64,000 nt of DNA from Sorangium cellulosum (GTDB taxonomy: Bacteria; Myxococcota_A; Polyangia; Polyangiales; Polyangiaceae). Location: contig NZ_CP012673.1 in NCBI RefSeq assembly GCF_002950945.1, forward strand, positions 12,825,501-12,889,500, in the 5' to 3' direction. Position 1 is the stretch's first letter. Each line of letters begins with the position of its first letter. Shown here in pieces: positions 6,482 to 19,276 of the stretch. The translations under genes and the position numbers were made by a program. The notes below the pieces were generated by a model. That model had not been told where the DNA came from. It did not search any database and worked only from the letters and a program-made list of their open reading frames with translations.

Positions 6482-7666
6482 GTGCCGACCGCGCCGCCCC
6501 GCGCTCCCCGCCGGGCCCCCCTATCGGACAGATCCCCGCTCCCTGGACGCCCTCTGTCGGACCTCGCCCCCACCGGCTGGCTCGCTGCCGCGATATGGCT
6601 CACCGCGTGCGCCGCGCCGGGCGACGGCGGTGGCAGCCCTGCGGGCAGGGCGGGCGCCTCCGTCGAGGCCGCCCCTGCTGCCCTGCCGGCGGCCCTCGCC
6701 GCCGCCGCGCTGTCCGCGTCCGCCGCGCCGGCGTCGGCCGTGCCTGCGTCCGCTGGCAGCGCCCACGCCGGCGCGGCCATCCTGGGCGGCGCCCCCGCCG
6801 AGCCTGCGTCCGCCGGGAGCAGCGCGAGCGCGGCATCAGCCGGCGCGCCCCCGCCCGGCTCGGCCAGCGCCGGGTTGCCCGCCCTGCCGCTCCAGGCGCC
6901 CGGGGCGTGCCCCGCCGACATGGCCCCCGTGGGCGGCTTCTGCATCGATCGCTACGAGGCGCACCTCGTCACCGAGGCCGGCGGCGAGCTCGCCGTGCAC
7001 CCGCATTACAAGAGGCCGGAGCCGGGGGTCCGCTACCTCGCCCGCAGCGGGCCCGGCGTGTTTCCGCAGGCGTACATCAGCCGTGTCGAGGCCAAGGCCG
7101 CGTGTGCCGCCGCCGGCAAGCGCCTCTGCACGCGGCGGGAGTGGCAGCGCGCCTGCCGCGGCAACGGGGTCCACCGCTACCCGTACGGGCCCCGCGGCGA
7201 GCGCGGGCGGTGCAACACGGGAAAAGCGCACCTCCTGCGCGAGGTCTTCGGCGAGCACCCGCCGGGCGGGTGGAGCTACGAGAGGCACTTCAACAGCCCC
7301 GAGCTCGACCAGAAGCCCGGCTTCCTGGCAAGAAGCGGCGACTACGCCGGATGTGCGAGCGAGCTCGGGGTCCACGACCTGATCGGGAACCTGCACGAGT
7401 GGGTGAGCGACATGGTCGATCACGATCTCGTGATGCGCCTCGCGGTCGAGGGCGTCGAGCGCCGCGACCAGCCGTGGCACGAGGGCAACGGCGTGTTCAT
7501 GGGCGGCTTCTTCAGCACGACCAGCGAGCTCGGCCCGGGCTGCTACTTCACCACGATCGCCCACGAGCCGACCTATCACGACTACTCCACGGGATTCCGC
7601 TGCTGCGACGGCCCCACGTTGCCCGCGGCGCCGGCCGGGGCGGGCGCGAAGAAGCAGGACGGCTGA
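6482..7666 (+). CDS. FGE-sulfatase (SUMF1-type) domain lipoprotein
   Basis: GTG 6482 gives a lipoprotein-like start: short basic Pro-rich N-terminus, hydrophobic WLAAAIWLTAC, then an Ala/Ser/Gly-rich linker to about residue 140. The C-terminal 250 residues match the formylglycine-generating-enzyme fold: GGFCIDRYEAHLV, AAAGKRLCTRREWQRACRG, YPYGP, IGNLHEWVSDM, and the end motif STGFRCC. Members of this family either oxidise sulfatase Cys or Ser or, as exported versions often do, act in other roles such as binding. The paired active-site Cys of true FGE could not be confirmed. No sulfatase lies in the window. 394 residues. Confidence 0.82.
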   Translation: MPTAPPRAPRRAPLSDRSPLPGRPLSDLAPTGWLAAAIWLTACAAPGDGGGSPAGRAGASVEAAPAALPAALAAAALSASAAPASAVPASAGSAHAGAAILGGAPAEPASAGSSASAASAGAPPPGSASAGLPALPLQAPGACPADMAPVGGFCIDRYEAHLVTEAGGELAVHPHYKRPEPGVRYLARSGPGVFPQAYISRVEAKAACAAAGKRLCTRREWQRACRGNGVHRYPYGPRGERGRCNTGKAHLLREVFGEHPPGGWSYERHFNSPELDQKPGFLARSGDYAGCASELGVHDLIGNLHEWVSDMVDHDLVMRLAVEGVERRDQPWHEGNGVFMGGFFSTTSELGPGCYFTTIAHEPTYHDYSTGFRCCDGPTLPAAPAGAGAKKQDG

Positions 7667-7797
7667 CGGCGGCGGCTCGCGGTGGAGCACCAGGCCACCG
7701 CGCGGTGACCTGTCGGGGGCTGGGTCCGAGTCCGGGCCCCGGTGGCTCTCCAGGCGAGGAGCACACAGCTCACGCGACGCTGGATTAGGATGGCGCC

Positions 7798-8898
7798 ATG
7801 TCGCGTCGACGGCGGTCCGTGCCGCTTGCCCTCAGCGCCGCGTTCGCGCTGTCGTCCGTGGCCGCGTCGGCGGAGCCGGGCGCCTCCGATCGCGTTCGCG
7901 CTCCGGCGTCCGCCGCCCCGACCACCTCGGCGGCCGATGCCGTCGCGCGCGACGCCATCCGGCGCGGCGACGAGGCGCGGCGCGCCGGCCGGTGGGGTGA
8001 AGCCGCCCTGGCCTACCGGGCCGCCCTGGAAGAGCGCCGCGGCCCGCCGCTCTCGCTCGCGACCCGCGCCGAGGTGGCCGGGGAGCTCGGCCTGTGCGAG
8101 CTCGCGCTCGGCGCGCATCGAGACGCCGCGGAGCACCTGCGCTTCAGCCTCGAGCACCGCAGCGCGCTCCCCGTCGAGCAGCAACGGCGGTTCGAGGCTG
8201 GACAGGTGCAGGCGGAGCGCGAGGTCGGCACGCTGTTCCTCGCCGTGAGCCCCCGCGACGCCGAGGTGCTCCTCGACGGCAGATCGCTCGGCGCGCCGCG
8301 CCCGGTCCACGTCGTCTTCGTCGAGCCTGGACCCCACACGGTGCGCGCGAGGCTCGCGGGGTACGCCGACGCGGTGGCCGGCATCGAGGCGGTGCGCGGC
8401 GCCTCGTCGAGCGTGACGCTCGCGCTCGCCGTGAGGGCGCCTGTCCCGGCGCCGTCGGCCCGCGCGAACGCGCTCCACCCCGGGCCCGCGCAGCCCGCGG
8501 CTCCAGGCGACACGGCCGACGTGCTGCGGCGCATCGCCCTCGGGACCGCCGCGGCGGGCGCCGTCCTCGGCGCCGGCTTCTGGGTCGCCGCGGAGGTGCT
8601 CGACGGCGTCGTCGACGAGCGCGCCCGAGAGATCCGCGAGCGCGGGGGACACGGCGCGTGCAACGGCGCGGGGTTCTCCGGGGCGTGCAAGCACCAGGAG
8701 GCGCTCATCGCGCGGCGCGACGGCGTGGGCGCGGCGGCCGTCGCGGTCCTCGTCGCGAGCGGCGCGCTCGGAGCGCTCTCGGTGTCGTCGTACTGGTGGG
8801 CCCCGGCGGCGCCGCCGCGCGCGACGGCCGGCTTCACGCCGATGGTCGCGGGGGCGACGGGGCTCTCGCCCGGCGTGACCCTCCAGGCGGTGTGGTAG
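7798..8898 (+). CDS. Exported PEGA-domain protein
   Basis: The 366-residue product has an N-terminal Sec signal (PLALSAAFALSSVAASA). Residues about 55-135 form an alpha-helical, TPR-like region. A PEGA domain follows at about 140-215 (LFLAVSPRDAEVLLDG, then EPGPHTVRARLAGY), a surface-layer-like fold common in myxobacteria. Two hydrophobic segments after residue 240 (IALGTAAAGAVLGAGFWVAA and AAAVAVLVASGALGALSV) look like membrane helices flanking a loop with two Cys. PEGA proteins are generally envelope-associated, binding function unknown. The next gene starts 11 bases after the stop, so they are probably co-transcribed. Confidence 0.82.
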   Translation: MSRRRRSVPLALSAAFALSSVAASAEPGASDRVRAPASAAPTTSAADAVARDAIRRGDEARRAGRWGEAALAYRAALEERRGPPLSLATRAEVAGELGLCELALGAHRDAAEHLRFSLEHRSALPVEQQRRFEAGQVQAEREVGTLFLAVSPRDAEVLLDGRSLGAPRPVHVVFVEPGPHTVRARLAGYADAVAGIEAVRGASSSVTLALAVRAPVPAPSARANALHPGPAQPAAPGDTADVLRRIALGTAAAGAVLGAGFWVAAEVLDGVVDERAREIRERGGHGACNGAGFSGACKHQEALIARRDGVGAAAVAVLVASGALGALSVSSYWWAPAAPPRATAGFTPMVAGATGLSPGVTLQAVW

Positions 8899-14534: not shown

Positions 14535-15401
14535 GTGGCAAGACCGAGACCGAAGAAGTCAGCGCCGGCCAGGCCGAGCGCACCGAGCGAGGCTGCGGAG
14601 GCGTTCGCGTTGATCGAGCCCGAGCTCGATCGCGTTGAGAAGGTCGTCCCCATCAACGTCGACATTCCGCGCGCGGTCGCCGTCGCGGTGGGCGCCGTCC
14701 CGCACCTCAAGGCGCTGCGCGCCCGCTTCGTGGACGAGCTGCCCAGGTTCCCGCTCGAGGCGCTGGACAAGCTGATGAGCTACGCGCTCGCGGCCTGGTA
14801 TGCGCACCTCCTGGCGCTGCCCGCCGGTCCGGGCCAGGACGGGCTGAAGCCGCTGCTCGACGAGGCGTCCGCGCTGCGCGCGGACCTGCTCGTGGCGGCG
14901 GAGGCCCTCGCGCACAAGGGCTTCGTCGACGCCGGGCGCGTCGCGGAGATCCGGAGCGGCAAGGGCCACCTCGACACGGCGAACGACCTGGTCGCGCTGG
15001 CCGCGCTGTTCGGCGAGTCGTGGGACGCCGTGAAGAACAGGACCACGGTGGAGTGGCCGGAGGTCGAGCGCGCGTCGAAGCTCGGCCCGGAGCTGCTCGT
15101 GGCCCTCGGCGCCCGCAACCAGCCGGGGCTGCCGGCGCCCAAGGCCGTCGATCCGGCCGAGCGTCGCGCGCGGGCGTTCACGCTGCTCGTGCGGGCGTAT
15201 GACCAGTGCCGCCGCGGCGTCACGTACCTGCGCTGGGCCGAGGGGGACTACGACGCGATCGCGCCGTCGCTCTTCGCGGGGCGCGGAGGAGCGCGGCGCG
15301 CGGGGCCGGCCAAGGGGGAGGCGGCGGACGAGGGGGCGGAGGGAGAGCCCACGGGAGAGGGCGGCCTGGGCCTCGAAGACGGCGAAGCGCCGGTGGAGTA
15401 A
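14535..15401 (+). CDS. Conserved-looking protein of unknown function
   Basis: GTG 14535 is preceded by AGGGAGGAATC, a strong ribosome-binding site, so the longer frame from 14445 is rejected. The 288-residue product has a basic Pro/Ala-rich N-terminus (VARPRPKKSAPARP), then an alpha-helical core with motifs such as FVDELPRFPLEALDKLMSYA and LLVAAEALAHKGFVD, and an acidic, Gly/Glu-rich tail after about residue 255. There is no signal peptide or membrane segment, so it is cytoplasmic. I recognise no domain. It stands alone between the M28 gene and the repeat array, with its own possible promoter at 14416. Confidence 0.8.
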   Translation: MARPRPKKSAPARPSAPSEAAEAFALIEPELDRVEKVVPINVDIPRAVAVAVGAVPHLKALRARFVDELPRFPLEALDKLMSYALAAWYAHLLALPAGPGQDGLKPLLDEASALRADLLVAAEALAHKGFVDAGRVAEIRSGKGHLDTANDLVALAALFGESWDAVKNRTTVEWPEVERASKLGPELLVALGARNQPGLPAPKAVDPAERRARAFTLLVRAYDQCRRGVTYLRWAEGDYDAIAPSLFAGRGGARRAGPAKGEAADEGAEGEPTGEGGLGLEDGEAPVE

Positions 15402-15548
15402 CACACGGCGCAGGGGCCTGAGGCGGGGTGGAGGCGACGGTCGGCCTCGAGGCCGGGGTACATACGGCGCGGGAGCGGTCTGGAACGACCGTTCCCGTCG
15501 GTCTCGCCGCTCCCCGTCTCCGTGTGCCGTGCACACGGCAACCACGCC
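15402..15548. other. Intergenic stretch with small inverted repeats
   Basis: No gene is visible. It holds an 8-bp inverted repeat (CCGTGTGC, three-base gap, GCACACGG) at 15520-15538 and a GGAAC/GTTCC pair at 15486-15495 region, leading into the repeat array at 15549. Confidence 0.6.
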
Positions 15549-15890
15549 GACCGGTCCGACCGGCCCAACCCCATCGAAATCACGTTCTTCGAGCGGTCGG
15601 ACCGCCGCTGTGGGCGACAGCGCAACGCCGGCGGGGCGGTCGGGCCGCCGCTCTGCTGTCAGGATCATTGTCCAGAAGGCGGTCCAACCGCCTCGCCGGT
15701 GTCGAGATCGACGCCGAACGGGCGGTCCGACCGCCGCTCGTGCCGAGATCCATGCAGGATGCGGCGGTCCGACCGCCCTTTCCCGGTCGAGATGACGGTT
15801 CAGCGAGCGGTCCGACCGACCGCTCGCTGTCGAGATCGGTATCCGGAGGGCGGTGCAACCGGCTCGCGCTCAGCATGACGATCCTGTGAG
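15549..15890. repeat. Array of eight 42-43 bp units with a palindromic core
   Basis: Units start at 15549, 15591, 15634, 15677, 15720, 15762, 15805 and 15848, so every step is 42 or 43 bases. Each unit starts with a core close to GGGCGGTCCGACCGCC, which is itself a near-perfect palindrome, followed in the better copies by a half-conserved GTCGAGATC block and about 10 variable bases. The first, second and last units are the most diverged. The step is close to four DNA turns, placing all cores on one helix face. It lies about 200 bases upstream of the AlbA_2/ParA gene pair. Repeats are too degenerate and the spacing too short for CRISPR. An iteron- or centromere-like protein-binding array is the simplest reading. 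Confidence 0.85.
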
Positions 15891-16024
15891 CCCGGCGCTC
15901 CATCGAGCTGGCCGCCGGACCCTTGCGGTGCTCGAGCAAACCTATCCCGAGGCCCGCCCCACCTTCCGCGTCCGTTCTCCCGGCATACGCCTCGCTCGGC
16001 GGCTGGGGCGTTGTTCCGCCCGCG

Positions 16025-16034
16025 GTCCCGGGAC
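16025..16034. promoter_or_regulatory. 10-bp palindrome GTCCCGGGAC
   Basis: A perfect 10-bp palindrome 58 bases before the presumed start of the AlbA_2-type gene, 20 bases before the larger palindrome. May be a half-strength copy of the same kind of operator (shared CCCGGG centre). Confidence 0.4.
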
Positions 16035-16054
16035 ATACTACCGGCGAAGCGGTC

Positions 16055-16076
16055 CCCCACCTCCCGGGAGGTGGGG
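16055..16076. promoter_or_regulatory. 22-bp perfect palindrome, probable operator
   Basis: Bases 16055-16076 read CCCCACCTCCC followed by its exact reverse complement, without a loop. It ends 15 bases before the ATG at 16092. A loop-free palindrome at this place suits a dimeric DNA-binding protein better than a terminator and could allow autoregulation of the AlbA_2-ParA pair; this is inference. Confidence 0.6.
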
Positions 16077-16091
16077 CGGTCCTCGGAGCTG

Positions 16092-17285
16092 ATGCACCTC
16101 ATGACGCGGGAAGAGCTGGAGGCGATGCTCCAGGAGATCGAGTCGGATCGCGTCGAGCGCACCAGATCGGTGAAGGACGAGGACAAGATCGGTCAGGCGA
16201 TCTGCGCGTTCGCCAACGATCTACCTGGCCACCGCAGGCCGGGCTACCTCTTCATCGGCGCGAACGATGACGGGACGCCTTCCCACCTCACCATCGACGA
16301 CCGCATGCTCCAGACCCTGGCGGCATTCCGATCGGACGGCAATATCCAGCCGCTTCCGGTCATGACCGTGCAGAAGTGGTCCCTCGGCGGGGGTGACATG
16401 GCGGTCGTCGAGGTGCTTCCCTCCGATCTGCCTCCGGTTCGCTACCGAGGCCGCATCTGGATCCGCGTTGGACCGCGCAAGGCCATCGCCAGCGAGCAGG
16501 ACGAACGTGTCCTCGCCGAGCGCAGGACGACGCTGGCCCGGACCTGGGACGCGCGCCCTTGCCGCGAGGCATCGCTGTCCGATCTCTCGCTGGACCTCTT
16601 CACGTTGAGCTATCGGCTGTACGCGGTCGCTCCCGACGTCATTGAGGAGAACCACCGCACCGCGGAGCAGCAGCTCGCCGCCCTGCGCTTCTTCGATCCA
16701 CGAGCAGGCTTTCCCACGAACGCCGGGGTCCTGCTCTTCGCCAAGGATCCGCTCTACTTTCTGCCCGGCGCCTACGTGCAATACGTCCGGTATGATGGCG
16801 CGACGCAGGCCGCGGACGTCCTCAAGGAGCGGCGCTTCTCGGGCGATCTGCTGAGCGTGATGCGAGGCCTCGACCAGCTGGCTGCGGAGGTCGAGAGCGC
16901 ACGGCCGGTCGCGCTGGACGAGGGGGGAGACCGGACCGTGTACGATTACCCGCGACGGGCGCTCCACGAGTTATTGACCAACGCGATCATCCACCGCAAC
17001 TACGATGGATCGACCACGCCGGTGATGGTCAACCACTTCGCGGACCGGATCGAGATCCTGAGCCCGGGCGGGCTGTACCCCGACCTCACGCCCGAGCAAT
17101 TTCCGCACGGCACCGCCTACCGCAACCCCATCGTCGCCGAGGCTGCGAAGGTGCTGGGGTTCGTCAACCGGTTCGGACGTGGCATCGCGATCACGCAGGC
17201 TCAGCTCGCCGCCAACGGCTCTCCACCGGCGACCTTCGAGCCCGCGTACAACCGCTTCCTGGCCGTGGTGCGGAGACGGCCGTGA
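16092..17285 (+). CDS. AlbA_2/Schlafen-type ATP-binding protein
   Basis: The 397-residue product has an AlbA_2 (Schlafen AlbA-like) domain at about residues 10-145, with QEIESDRVERTRSVKDEDKI, ICAFANDLPG, GYLFIGANDDG and the closing PPVRYRGRIWIRVGPRKA. The C-terminal third (about 265-390) is the RecG-like/HATPase_c_4 type with LHELLTNAIIHRNYDG, DRIEILSPGGL, YRNPIVAEAAKVLG and NRFGRGI. Family members are annotated as transcriptional regulators or ATP-binding proteins; several Schlafen-like proteins act in phage defence. ATG 16092 is preceded by CGGAG; ATG 16101 is an alternative and the frame is open to 16011. Its TGA overlaps the GTG of the ParA-like gene, so translation is coupled. Confidence 0.87.
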   Translation: MHLMTREELEAMLQEIESDRVERTRSVKDEDKIGQAICAFANDLPGHRRPGYLFIGANDDGTPSHLTIDDRMLQTLAAFRSDGNIQPLPVMTVQKWSLGGGDMAVVEVLPSDLPPVRYRGRIWIRVGPRKAIASEQDERVLAERRTTLARTWDARPCREASLSDLSLDLFTLSYRLYAVAPDVIEENHRTAEQQLAALRFFDPRAGFPTNAGVLLFAKDPLYFLPGAYVQYVRYDGATQAADVLKERRFSGDLLSVMRGLDQLAAEVESARPVALDEGGDRTVYDYPRRALHELLTNAIIHRNYDGSTTPVMVNHFADRIEILSPGGLYPDLTPEQFPHGTAYRNPIVAEAAKVLGFVNRFGRGIAITQAQLAANGSPPATFEPAYNRFLAVVRRRP

Positions 17286-18301
17286 AGACCATTGCGTTCT
17301 TCAACAACAAGGGTGGAGTCGGTAAGACGTCGCTCGTCTACCACCTCGCCTGGATGTACCACGAGCTCGGCGAGCGCGTCGTCGCCATCGACCTCGATCC
17401 TCAGTCCAACCTGACGACGGCGTTTCTTCCCGTCGAGCGGCTCGAGCAGCTCTGGTCGAGCCATGAGCATCCGCACACGATCCTCGGCGCGATCCAGCCG
17501 CTCATGGATCACATCGGCGACCTCGCGCAACCTCATGTGGAGCTCGTGGACAGCGACATGTGGAGCGCGCTCTCGCTCGTACCGGGCGATCTCGGCCTCA
17601 GCCTCTTCGAAGACCGGCTCGCAGAGGCATGGAACAAGTGCCTGAGCGACAGCCGGGGCGAGGCGCCGGACGCGTTCCGGGTCATGAGCGCCTTCCACCG
17701 GGTCATGGAGCGCGCAGCGGCGCAAGCAGAAGCCGATCTCGTCTTGGTCGACGTGGGGCCGAACCTCGGCGCGCTGAACCGCGCTGCCCTCGTCGCCTCC
17801 GATTTCGTCGTCGTGCCGCTCGGCGCCGATGTCTTCTCCCTTCAGGGGCTGCGCAACCTGGGGCCGACGCTCGCACAGTGGCGGCGCGGCTGGAGGAAGC
17901 GCCTCGACAACGAGGCGCGTCCCGAGGAGGTCTCCGTACCCAAGGGCGAGATGCGCCCCATCGGCTACGTCATCCTGCAGCACGCCGCGCGTGAGGGTCA
18001 CCCCGTGAAGGTGTACCAGCGATGGATCGACAAGATCCCGGAGGTCTATCGCCGGAGGCTCCTCGGCGAGGAAGGGGACGTGCCCAGCCCGGATCCGCAC
18101 CTGCTCGCGACGATACGGCACTACCGCAGCCTCATGCCCATGGCGCAGGAGGCGCGAAAGCCGATGTTCCTGCTCAAACCCGCCGACGGCGCCATTGGCA
18201 GCCACGCCGCGGCCGTGCAGGACTGCCGGCGCGATTTCGAGGCGCTCGCTCGCCGCATCGCCGCCGGCGCCGGCATCCCTCTGGTCTCGCCTCCGGCCTG
18301 A
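17282..18301 (+). CDS. ParA-family ATPase
   Basis: The 339-residue protein starts at GTG 17282, overlapping the previous stop (GTGA). It has a deviant Walker A box, NNKGGVGKTSLVYHLAW (residues about 8-24), the motif VVAIDLDPQSNLTTAFL (A'), and a Walker B-like LVLVDVGPNLGALNRAAL near residue 160, followed by SDFVVVPLGADVFSLQGL. These are the hallmarks of ParA/Soj ATPases that move DNA or protein cargo on the nucleoid. It is longer than a typical Soj (about 250) and has an extra region at about 215-300 (KVYQRWIDKIPEVYRRRLLG) seen in some stand-alone ParA-like proteins. No ParB-like gene is adjacent; the AlbA_2 protein or an unknown factor might take that role (inference). The array at 15549-15890 is a candidate centromere. 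Confidence 0.9.
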   Translation: MKTIAFFNNKGGVGKTSLVYHLAWMYHELGERVVAIDLDPQSNLTTAFLPVERLEQLWSSHEHPHTILGAIQPLMDHIGDLAQPHVELVDSDMWSALSLVPGDLGLSLFEDRLAEAWNKCLSDSRGEAPDAFRVMSAFHRVMERAAAQAEADLVLVDVGPNLGALNRAALVASDFVVVPLGADVFSLQGLRNLGPTLAQWRRGWRKRLDNEARPEEVSVPKGEMRPIGYVILQHAAREGHPVKVYQRWIDKIPEVYRRRLLGEEGDVPSPDPHLLATIRHYRSLMPMAQEARKPMFLLKPADGAIGSHAAAVQDCRRDFEALARRIAAGAGIPLVSPPA

Positions 18302-18343
18302 TCCCCACGTCCGCGAGGCGCTGTCAGCCCGGAGCCAGCTCGC

Positions 18344-19276
18344 TCACGCCGCGAACATCCGGTCGAGCACCGCCCTCGGCGCCCCGCCCTGCAGGATCGT
18401 CTCGAGCGCCTCGAACACCCCCCCGTCGACCTTCCGCTCCTTCGCGAACGCCACGATCCGCGGGATCAGCGGGATCGCCTCCACGCGCAGCCGCGCCTCC
18501 GCGACCGCCTCGTCGAGCGTGCGCCCGCGCGCGAGGGCCTTGCCGAGCAGCACCTCGGGGCGGCTCTCGAGCCGGATCGAGGCGAGCAGGTCGCCGTAGC
18601 CGCCGAGCCCCAGCACCGTCCGCTCCTCCGCGCCCGCCGCGACGGCGATGCGGGCCGCGCTGTCCACCGCCCGCGAGATCAGCGCCGCGAGCAACCCCGG
18701 CCCGGCGCCCGCCTGCTCGGCGAAGCCGACGCCGATCGCCAGGCAGCCCACCAGCGCCGACGCCCACTCCAGGCCCAGGAGATCCGGCGTCGTGTAGACG
18801 CGGAGCGCGTCGGACTGGAACGCCGCCGTCACCGCGGCGTGCACCTCCGGGAACCGCGAGCCGCACACCATCGCCGACGGGCGGCCCTCCGTGAGCTCAT
18901 CCGCCTGCACCGGGCCGCCGAGCGCGCCCACGCGGCGCGCCGGCGTCTCCTCCCGCACCAGATCCGAGACCGTCTTCAGCGCCTCGCCCTCGAGGCCGCG
19001 CACGCCGTGGATCACGAGGTGCGAGCCGTCCATGTGATCGCCCAGCGCGCGCAGCGCCGTCCGCGCCGCGTTCGACGGCACCGCGATCACGAGCAGCCGC
19101 GCCCGGGCCACCTCCGCGTAGTCCCGCACGATCCGCGGGCCGTCGTTGATCTGCGGGTGCTCGCGGCGGGAGAACAAGAGGACCTCGGCCCCGGTGCGGC
19201 TCGCCGAGAGCGCCAGCGCCACCCCCCAGAACCCGCCGCCGATGACCCCGACCGAAGGCGCCGGACGAGCGCTCAC
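18344..19276 (-). CDS. GpsA-like protein lacking catalytic lysines
   Basis: The 310-residue product has the NAD(P) Rossmann motif of glycerol-3-phosphate dehydrogenase near its start (VGVIGGGFWGVALALSASR) and the family layout to the end. However, where active GpsA has a Lys in the GALKNV stretch, this protein reads EWASALVGCLAIGVG (Lys to Val, Asn to Gly). The earlier conserved Lys-Gly is His-Gly (VIHGVRGLEG), and the SRN motif is SRP. It may therefore be inactive for the classical reaction (sn-glycerol-3-phosphate + NAD(P)+ to dihydroxyacetone phosphate) or act on another substrate. GTG 19276 overlaps the stop of the PlsB-type gene by 4 bases (GTGA), so the two are coupled and probably act together. 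Confidence 0.85.
   Translation of the reverse strand: MSARPAPSVGVIGGGFWGVALALSASRTGAEVLLFSRREHPQINDGPRIVRDYAEVARARLLVIAVPSNAARTALRALGDHMDGSHLVIHGVRGLEGEALKTVSDLVREETPARRVGALGGPVQADELTEGRPSAMVCGSRFPEVHAAVTAAFQSDALRVYTTPDLLGLEWASALVGCLAIGVGFAEQAGAGPGLLAALISRAVDSAARIAVAAGAEERTVLGLGGYGDLLASIRLESRPEVLLGKALARGRTLDEAVAEARLRVEAIPLIPRIVAFAKERKVDGGVFEALETILQGGAPRAVLDRMFAA

Follow-up and report, generated by a model that had tools for sequence, protein, structure and literature searches.

Arrays of inverted-repeat cores spaced at four DNA turns are linked to a multi-copy protein family in Myxococcota chromosomes

Introduction

Which protein does a helically phased DNA repeat in a bacterial chromosome belong to, and what might the two do together? 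The question is raised by a 64-kb stretch of the Sorangium cellulosum chromosome (C1:12825501-12889500 of a 14.56-Mb genome in a single contig), called the window here. It holds an array of eight 15-bp near-palindromic cores at 15550..15863, spaced in 42-43 bp steps. A gene of no named family, called X here, lies directly before the array, and a coupled pair of genes for an AlbA_2 protein and a ParA-type ATPase lies downstream. The first-pass annotation of the window assigned the array to the AlbA_2/ParA pair and did not mention X, which proved to be the conserved partner. The array and X very probably form one unit. As a whole, the best explanation is that the array is a multi-site DNA target of X on which a centromere- or anchor-like complex would form, and we give this explanation about an even chance of being right. 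Below, L numbers denote fetched genome stretches and G numbers denote genomes.

The array in the window

The array was identified by pattern match and resampling, and no strand is assigned to it. The matched cores are ACCGGTCCGACCGGC (15550..15564), AGCGGTCGGACCGCC (15592..15606), GGCGGTCGGGCCGCC (15635..15649), GGCGGTCCAACCGCC (15678..15692), GGCGGTCCGACCGCC twice (15721..15735 and 15763..15777), AGCGGTCCGACCGAC (15806..15820), and GGCGGTGCAACCGGC (15849..15863). Compared with GGCGGTCCGACCGCC or its reverse complement, each core agrees at 12 to 15 of the 15 positions, and the core-to-core steps are 42, 43, 43, 43, 42, 43, and 43 bp. The 64-kb window contains 26 matches to this type of core, and the longest chain with 41-44 bp steps consists of the eight array cores. 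In 60 resampled windows (order-1, equal mean match number), the longest chain was at most 2. Tandem Repeats Finder also called a 43-bp array at 15634-15861. These results bear out the earlier description of eight phased near-palindromic units. When the whole 14.56-Mb genome was searched with a two-core pattern, the window array and one more array (C1:12033203-12033427) were found; a reversed control pattern had no match anywhere in the genome.

Gene X and its linkage to arrays

Gene X (14535..15401, + strand) encodes 288 amino acids (aa) from a GTG start, with a ribosome-site-like stretch, GGGAGGA, ahead of it. From its open reading frame, its homologues beside arrays, and its AlphaFold2 model, it is the candidate array-binding protein. 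Homologues of X adjoin arrays in L039 (89% identity), L042 (42%), and L044 (33%). X belongs to a paralogous, multi-copy family in Myxococcota: at E<=1e-5, matches were found in 66 of the 183 genomes of the order, many with several matches, and in 43 of 377 genomes sampled across the phylum. The family has no match in Pfam, NCBIfam, PHROGs, or PADLOC, and X was absent from the plasmid and phage collections searched. The AlphaFold2 model, built on an alignment of 47 sequences, is all-alpha, with a predicted local distance difference test value (pLDDT) of 85.7 and a predicted template modeling score (pTM) of 0.74. Foldseek found nothing at E<=0.001 in the PDB or among viral models for this structure, and a profile search of PDB sequences with X gave no match. 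Weak matches (two in Pfam for one X, at E 0.03 and 0.09, and one PDB chain at E 1.3) were not used. An X orthologue present in six Sorangium genomes (L080, L084, L091, L095, L101, and L103, the last cut by a contig end) is 90-96% identical and has conserved neighbors; the greA family next to it was searched in L080 only.

The linkage of X to arrays was measured on 100 fetched X stretches, 60 from the order search and 40 from the phylum search, together with L039, L042, L044, and the window. These 60 and 40 loci were picked from the listed matches, mostly better-scoring and spread over genomes, and form neither a random nor a complete sample. The detector sought a chain of 11-mers spaced at 41-44 bp, with at most 2 mismatches, no more than 1000 bp upstream or 600 bp downstream of a gene. 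The 108 X genes include pairs that share one array (L119; neighbors in L118 and L120), second copies (L092), and windows truncated at contig ends; the 225 control genes are the other genes of the first 64 loci only. An array of at least four units was found near 55 of the 108 X genes and near 5 of the 225 controls (Fisher p about 1e-26). The corresponding counts were 79 and 19 for arrays of at least three units, and 41 and 1 for at least five. When five other step ranges were applied, arrays of at least four units were found near 6, 1, 1, 1, and 0 of the 108 X genes. The lag spectrum near X has its main rises at 41-44 and 82-86 bp. An earlier run with steps of 41-43 bp gave 38 of 67 X genes against 6 of 295 controls. 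Outside the order, 6 of 20 X loci had at least four units: L148, L153, and L157 in other orders of the class, and L158, L166, and L167 elsewhere in the phylum.

After one chain that is probably coding (L097) was dropped, 38 X-adjacent array loci were counted. In 31 of them the array lies 96-557 bp upstream of the matched X body; in the other seven (window, L039, L086, L104, L106, L122, and L126) it lies after X.

Step length and core footprint

Among arrays whose dyad is clear, core-to-core distances in the range 38-47 bp had these counts: 39 bp, 1; 40 bp, 5; 41 bp, 41; 42 bp, 103; 43 bp, 92; 44 bp, 4; 45 bp, 4; and 46 bp, 3. Distances of 41-43 bp thus make up 236 of 253. Another 58 distances, 38 of them below this range (including 14 of 8 bp and 6 of 33 bp) and 20 above it, were treated as internal repeats or stray matches and left out. 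The mean of the 38 array means is 42.20 bp, which is four DNA turns. L088 has 13 steps of exactly 43 bp.

The identity between units was profiled over 36 arrays. It reaches 0.88-0.94 at positions 2 to 5 bp away from the dyad, dips to 0.77 at the center, and falls to 0.52-0.64 from 10 bp outward. Such a profile is what a dimer site made of two half-sites would give, and not what a conserved transcript would. In the window array too, the sequence between the cores drifts. The earlier proposal that spacer drift at constant step points to protein binding in phase is therefore supported by the step distribution, by the two-half-site footprint, and by spacers near background. A second motif at the half-period was considered as a general feature and rejected, since none appears in the mean profile; several Sorangium arrays do hold both GGCAGC..GCTGCC and ACCG-N4-CGGT.

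A tandem array beside a single protein gene, with cores from which hairpins are possible, could also be read as RNA: the array would be transcribed into a chain of hairpins bound by X, like a type III antitoxin RNA. We consider this very unlikely. The arms of the cores do covary within units (1569 paired cells against 1547.7 in a within-array shuffle, sd 4.1, maximum 1562 of 1000), and the length of the core center varies between arrays (2, 3, or 4 nucleotides), both as hairpins would allow. Arm covariation can, however, come from units related by duplication. On the X strand, the 273 arm mismatches comprise 75 A.C, 50 G.T, and 148 others; most are thus neither A.C nor G.T, and A.C exceeds G.T (p 0.03), so that wobble pairing fits only on the opposite strand. 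The step is held near four DNA turns across unrelated cores, and spacer identity is near background. In type III toxin-antitoxin systems the array lies upstream of the toxin gene and is co-transcribed with it, and the toxin families are ToxN/CptN/TenpN. That position is not matched here, as arrays lie on either side of X, including downstream in the seven loci named above, or far away from it. X has no Pfam or NCBIfam match to toxin families and its model is all-alpha, and no Rfam match was found at the gathering threshold in 7 loci. The RNA hairpin reading is weakened by the constancy of the step, the spacer profile, and the mismatch types, although the arm covariation leaves it a small probability.

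Core classes and remote arrays

Core similarity increases with X identity (r 0.31, permutation p 0.001; 28 X-linked arrays). In clade I (window, L039, L086, and L098), most units have CGGT-N3-ACCG, and the same holds for the more distant L042 and L044. A second Sorangium X group, 81-91% identical in the listed pairs, has ACCG-N4-CGGT in most units (L078, L081, L082, L083, L088, L090, L093, L100, and L102). A statement that every paralogue has a wholly different core was rejected as too strong, since these nine arrays of one X group share a core. The reversed-sequence control of the core classes gave zero in most arrays, not all: ACCG-N4-CGGT matched 5 times in L081, CGGT-N3-ACCG matched 4, 7, 4, and 2 times in L098, L120, L121, and L118, and single matches occurred in some others. 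Within the genus, the window-core pattern is present in all four genomes that have a window-type X and absent from the two that lack one.

Arrays are also present at sites remote from X. The second array of the window genome (L007, C1:12033203-12033427) has seven cores with steps of 43, 42, 43, 43, 43, and 43 bp, and the 17 kb around it contain no X-like or ParA-like gene. Beside it, L007:9413-14944 encodes a 1843-aa protein that, to judge from its translation, resembles a NACHT-type ATPase that has HEAT-like repeats and ends in a phosphoesterase part; the remnant of an AAA_21 protein, longer in L038, lies next to this gene. In S. cellulosum So0157-2, L037:6679-6773 (three cores) and 7824-8090 (seven cores) flank a gene at 6917-7708 that is homologous to part of the L038 AAA_21 protein.

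The two-core pattern matched 25 of the 183 genomes of the order, where many matches look like coding sequence or simple repeats, and 12 further stretches were fetched from 9 of these 25 genomes. Arrays of at least six cores with 40-46 bp steps were found in L036, L037, L038, L039, L040, L042, L043, and L044. L041 has three cores only, and L045 and L047 are not arrays of this kind. L046:3116-3351 (G069), which lies between converging genes, is a chain of six at 43-bp steps whose core is a variant, and G069 has one X match elsewhere.

Three core classes were followed by exact pattern, which can miss diverged arrays. In these classes, remote arrays that lack X share their core class with an X elsewhere in their genome, and each genome has one to three remote arrays besides the one at X. 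CGGT-N3-ACCG arrays without X are L007, L036, L037, L038, and L040; ACCG-N4-CGGT arrays without X are L230, L231, and L232. With the core GGGT-N3-ACCC, G180 has four arrays and G181 three, in each case one at X. X was not found in L225-L232. L040 and L043 lie near contig ends, where X may lie just beyond, and L043 has no established cognate X. Orthologous remote arrays are kept between species, as in L007, L038, and the three-core array of L037, and in L225 and L229, which were paired by matching neighbor gene lengths.

This conservation bears on the reading in which the arrays are neutral or selfish tandem repeats, such as miniature inverted-repeat transposable elements or degenerate clustered regularly interspaced short palindromic repeats (CRISPR), that lie near X by chance. 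Tandem duplication probably made some of the arrays (L088), and array sites differ between species. However, the arrays are linked to X, the same step occurs with unrelated cores in many genera, the cores are conserved while the spacers have diverged, and remote arrays persist at orthologous sites. We therefore regard chance repeats as highly improbable.

The gene context of the remote arrays bears on another reading, in which the arrays are operators and X is a transcription regulator of itself and of a small regulon via clustered sites. Genes near arrays were called with a home-made codon-usage caller, not a trained gene finder. Of 15 remote arrays, a total that leaves out the L046 chain and the three-core array of L037, five lie between converging genes and away from promoters (L040, L043, L226, L227, and L231), six between diverging genes, and four between tandem genes. 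Promoters are thus not the common factor. The six arrays between diverging genes fit operators, and so does the upstream position of the array in 31 of the 38 X-adjacent loci. In addition, two genomes (L217:7472 and L039:8335) have a single core copy placed as an operator would be, 26 bp ahead of the start of an 87-aa gene. The arrays between converging genes and the seven that follow X do not fit. The 6 to 18 phased sites are more than an operator needs, and the 29 neighbor proteins searched are of mixed, unrelated kinds. Operator function is in our judgment unlikely, although it deserves to be kept in view.

Orthologous sites and neighboring genes

Downstream of the array, the window encodes an SLFN_AlbA_2 and HATPase_c_4 protein (PF04326, PF13749; 16101..17285, + strand) and a ParA-type ATPase (PF13614; 17282..18301, + strand), both identified by family search. 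The overlap of the two genes confirms the coupling noted in the first-pass annotation. Both are probably neighbors and not part of the system: AlbA_2 is absent at three orthologous array sites, and ParA is present at the orthologous site in one other genome. A perfect 22-bp palindrome, CCCCACCTCCCGGGAGGTGGGG, lies at 16055-16076 just before the AlbA_2 gene and is a possible operator or stem-loop of this gene pair.

The window site, where gpsA and its neighbors are conserved, corresponds to L039, L040, and L086/L217 (two overlapping stretches of one genome). Between the array and gpsA, the window has AlbA_2 and ParA; L217 has a 116-aa protein, a CHAT/NB-ARC/TPR protein, the 87-aa protein, and ParA; L039 has the 87-aa protein and a nucleotidyltransferase; and L040 has no gene, with X also missing from the site. 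L215 and L216 have neither array nor X at the site orthologous to the window. The nucleotidyltransferase of L039 has a weak DUF2204/AbiEii-like match. With its variable gene set, the segment at 15401-18344 of the window, with its orthologues in L039 and L217, looks like a site of defense-like gene turnover.

These sites bear on the view that the array is the centromere of the adjoining AlbA_2/ParA pair, with AlbA_2 as the adaptor. A ParA-type gene does lie 1.4 kb from the window array, a ParA relative is present at the same site in So0157-2 (L217), and the similarity of the window ParA to F-plasmid SopA is weak but detectable (E 3e-8, single comparison). In a check of whether the array occurs only beside AlbA_2-ParA pairs in related genomes, none of the three other sites with the orthologous array had AlbA_2, and two of the three also lacked ParA; G165 and G166 have an array with neither gene. 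Among 120 loci with X or an array, AlbA_2 occurs in the window only, and ParA occurs in three, which represent two genomes and one orthologous site. The same array without a ParA nearby also exists in the window's own genome, as the second array shows. The AlbA_2/ParA pair was rejected as the cognate pair on the orthologous sites and the second array, and its centromere role is barely credible.

The sole recurrent neighbor is a HerA-like ATPase (HerA_C, E 9e-12), found in 17 of the 120 loci, with a few fragments. It occurs in 82 of the 183 genomes of the order, some of them without an X match (e.g., G074 and G075), and at E<=1e-60 it was not found in three Sorangium genomes with X (G164, G165, and G166). 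HerA was therefore rejected as an obligatory partner. L118, L119, and L120 each have two X genes, a HerA-like gene, and one array per locus, and the two X genes of L119 are divergent and share the array. HerA-like matches at G000:C1:7446398 and elsewhere lie in open frames of 800-1200 aa, so the ATPase may be fused to another domain in many genomes.

Discussion

Linkage and geometry together suggest the following mechanism. X, or a complex containing X, would bind the inverted-repeat cores as a dimer; X itself is probably the binding protein. The 42-43 bp step would set successive X dimers on one helix face, and the array would therefore be coated as a single nucleoprotein platform, as SopB coats sopC. 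Because the X groups differ in core and remote arrays exist, X would act in trans on remote arrays, and different versions should not cross-react. Such a platform would most likely serve DNA anchoring, clustering, or segregation, not the control of one promoter. In other genera, the HerA-like, DNA-translocating ATPase next to X is a possible motor, and the window ParA could occasionally serve as a local one. For the role, our best single guess, a tentative one, is centromere-like anchoring, clustering, or segregation, with transcription control next. The remote arrays between converging genes speak for the former.

Several observations weigh against this explanation. By the detector, 53 of the 108 X genes have no array of at least four units, some of them in windows cut by contig ends, and the orthologous X lineage of six Sorangium genomes described above has no array. 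The array follows X in the window clade and mostly precedes it elsewhere. In the second Sorangium group, L087, L089, L094, and L099 have ACCG-N4-CGGT out of step or not at all, and the core is the same in some distantly related X pairs (L129/L112, with 0.34 identity between the X proteins). The correlation of core with X could arise from co-inheritance alone. The X model matches no known DNA-binding fold; the X body is mildly acidic, and basic charge is confined to the N-tail (mean +3.2). No motor gene is constant, with HerA-like genes in 17 and ParA in 3 of the 120 loci. Finally, X-array systems are chromosomal and need not serve segregation.

A broader proposal, which we offer as a possibility and regard as doubtful, is that Myxococcota have mutually orthogonal DNA address systems. 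Each genome would have several X, and the members of each X group would recognize a phased array of their own, both next to their gene and at a few distant chromosomal sites. These sites would be held, clustered, or moved by sopC-like complexes with a non-ParB protein, and in some genera a HerA-like pump would replace ParA. If this is true, evolution has arrived at the sopC type of centromere from an unrelated binding protein, and a single chromosome has several versions of it that do not cross-react, a natural set of orthogonal DNA tags. The arrays would then be a test case for protein-DNA specificity that diverges while the geometry stays at four helical turns. A large unnamed protein family of very large bacterial genomes would gain a function, and the reason why sopC repeats are 43 bp long would become comparable across many natural arrays. 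With the X-array family, bacteria may have a new means of tagging or moving DNA.

Comparison with known systems

The X-array family is widespread and, judged from the open-access literature, apparently undescribed. In that literature, the repeat passages of PMC3696898 and PMC11237760 treat CRISPR only. CRISPR resemble the X arrays in their short palindromic cores and constant spacing; unlike in CRISPR, the spacers here partly recur within arrays and the cores vary within an array, and no cas family was found among the neighbor proteins searched. Similarly, no Rep initiator family, as expected for the iterons of replication origins, was found among X and the neighbor proteins searched, which are a part of all neighbors.

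ToxIN, a type III toxin-antitoxin system, also combines a noncoding tandem-repeat array with one protein gene, and in the passages of PMC8860590 that describe it the repeats are RNA pseudoknots and the protein is an endoribonuclease. The X system is alike in having an array and a single protein gene, but here the step follows the DNA helix and arrays lie after X or remote from it.

Type Ib centromeres, such as parH/ParG and parS/omega of pSM19035, are adaptor-bound repeat arrays, some with several sites per replicon, according to the relevant passages of PMC5016525. The binding proteins are described there as small, with ParG and omega being ribbon-helix-helix proteins. The repeat arrays are alike, whereas X differs in being a 288-aa, all-alpha protein with no fold match.

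The closest likeness is to sopC of the F plasmid. Passages of PMC6238139 and PMC9178275 describe it as a run of twelve repeats, each 43 bp long, in which ten 16-bp inverted-repeat motifs are bound by dimers of ParB(F). The same detector, run on sopC (NC_002483), found 11 units at exactly 43 bp with an inverted-repeat core. X differs from SopB: the hhalign probability is 0.1, in keeping with the lack of PDB and family matches. Unlike SopABC, the X system has no constant ParA, and the window ParA lies after the array and AlbA_2. The X system does not belong to type Ia (SopABC/ParABS), since X has no likeness to ParB and ParA is found beside it in few loci. Unlike sopC, the X arrays are chromosomal, with several paralogues per genome that have different cores, and with remote arrays. 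The centromere likeness proposed in the first-pass annotation thus holds, and more closely than first stated, while its tie to AlbA_2/ParA does not. Both sopC and the X arrays are tandem repeats of about 43 bp with inverted-repeat cores, and sopC lies directly after the gene of its binding protein, as the array does in the window clade. The architecture of the X arrays is sopC-like.
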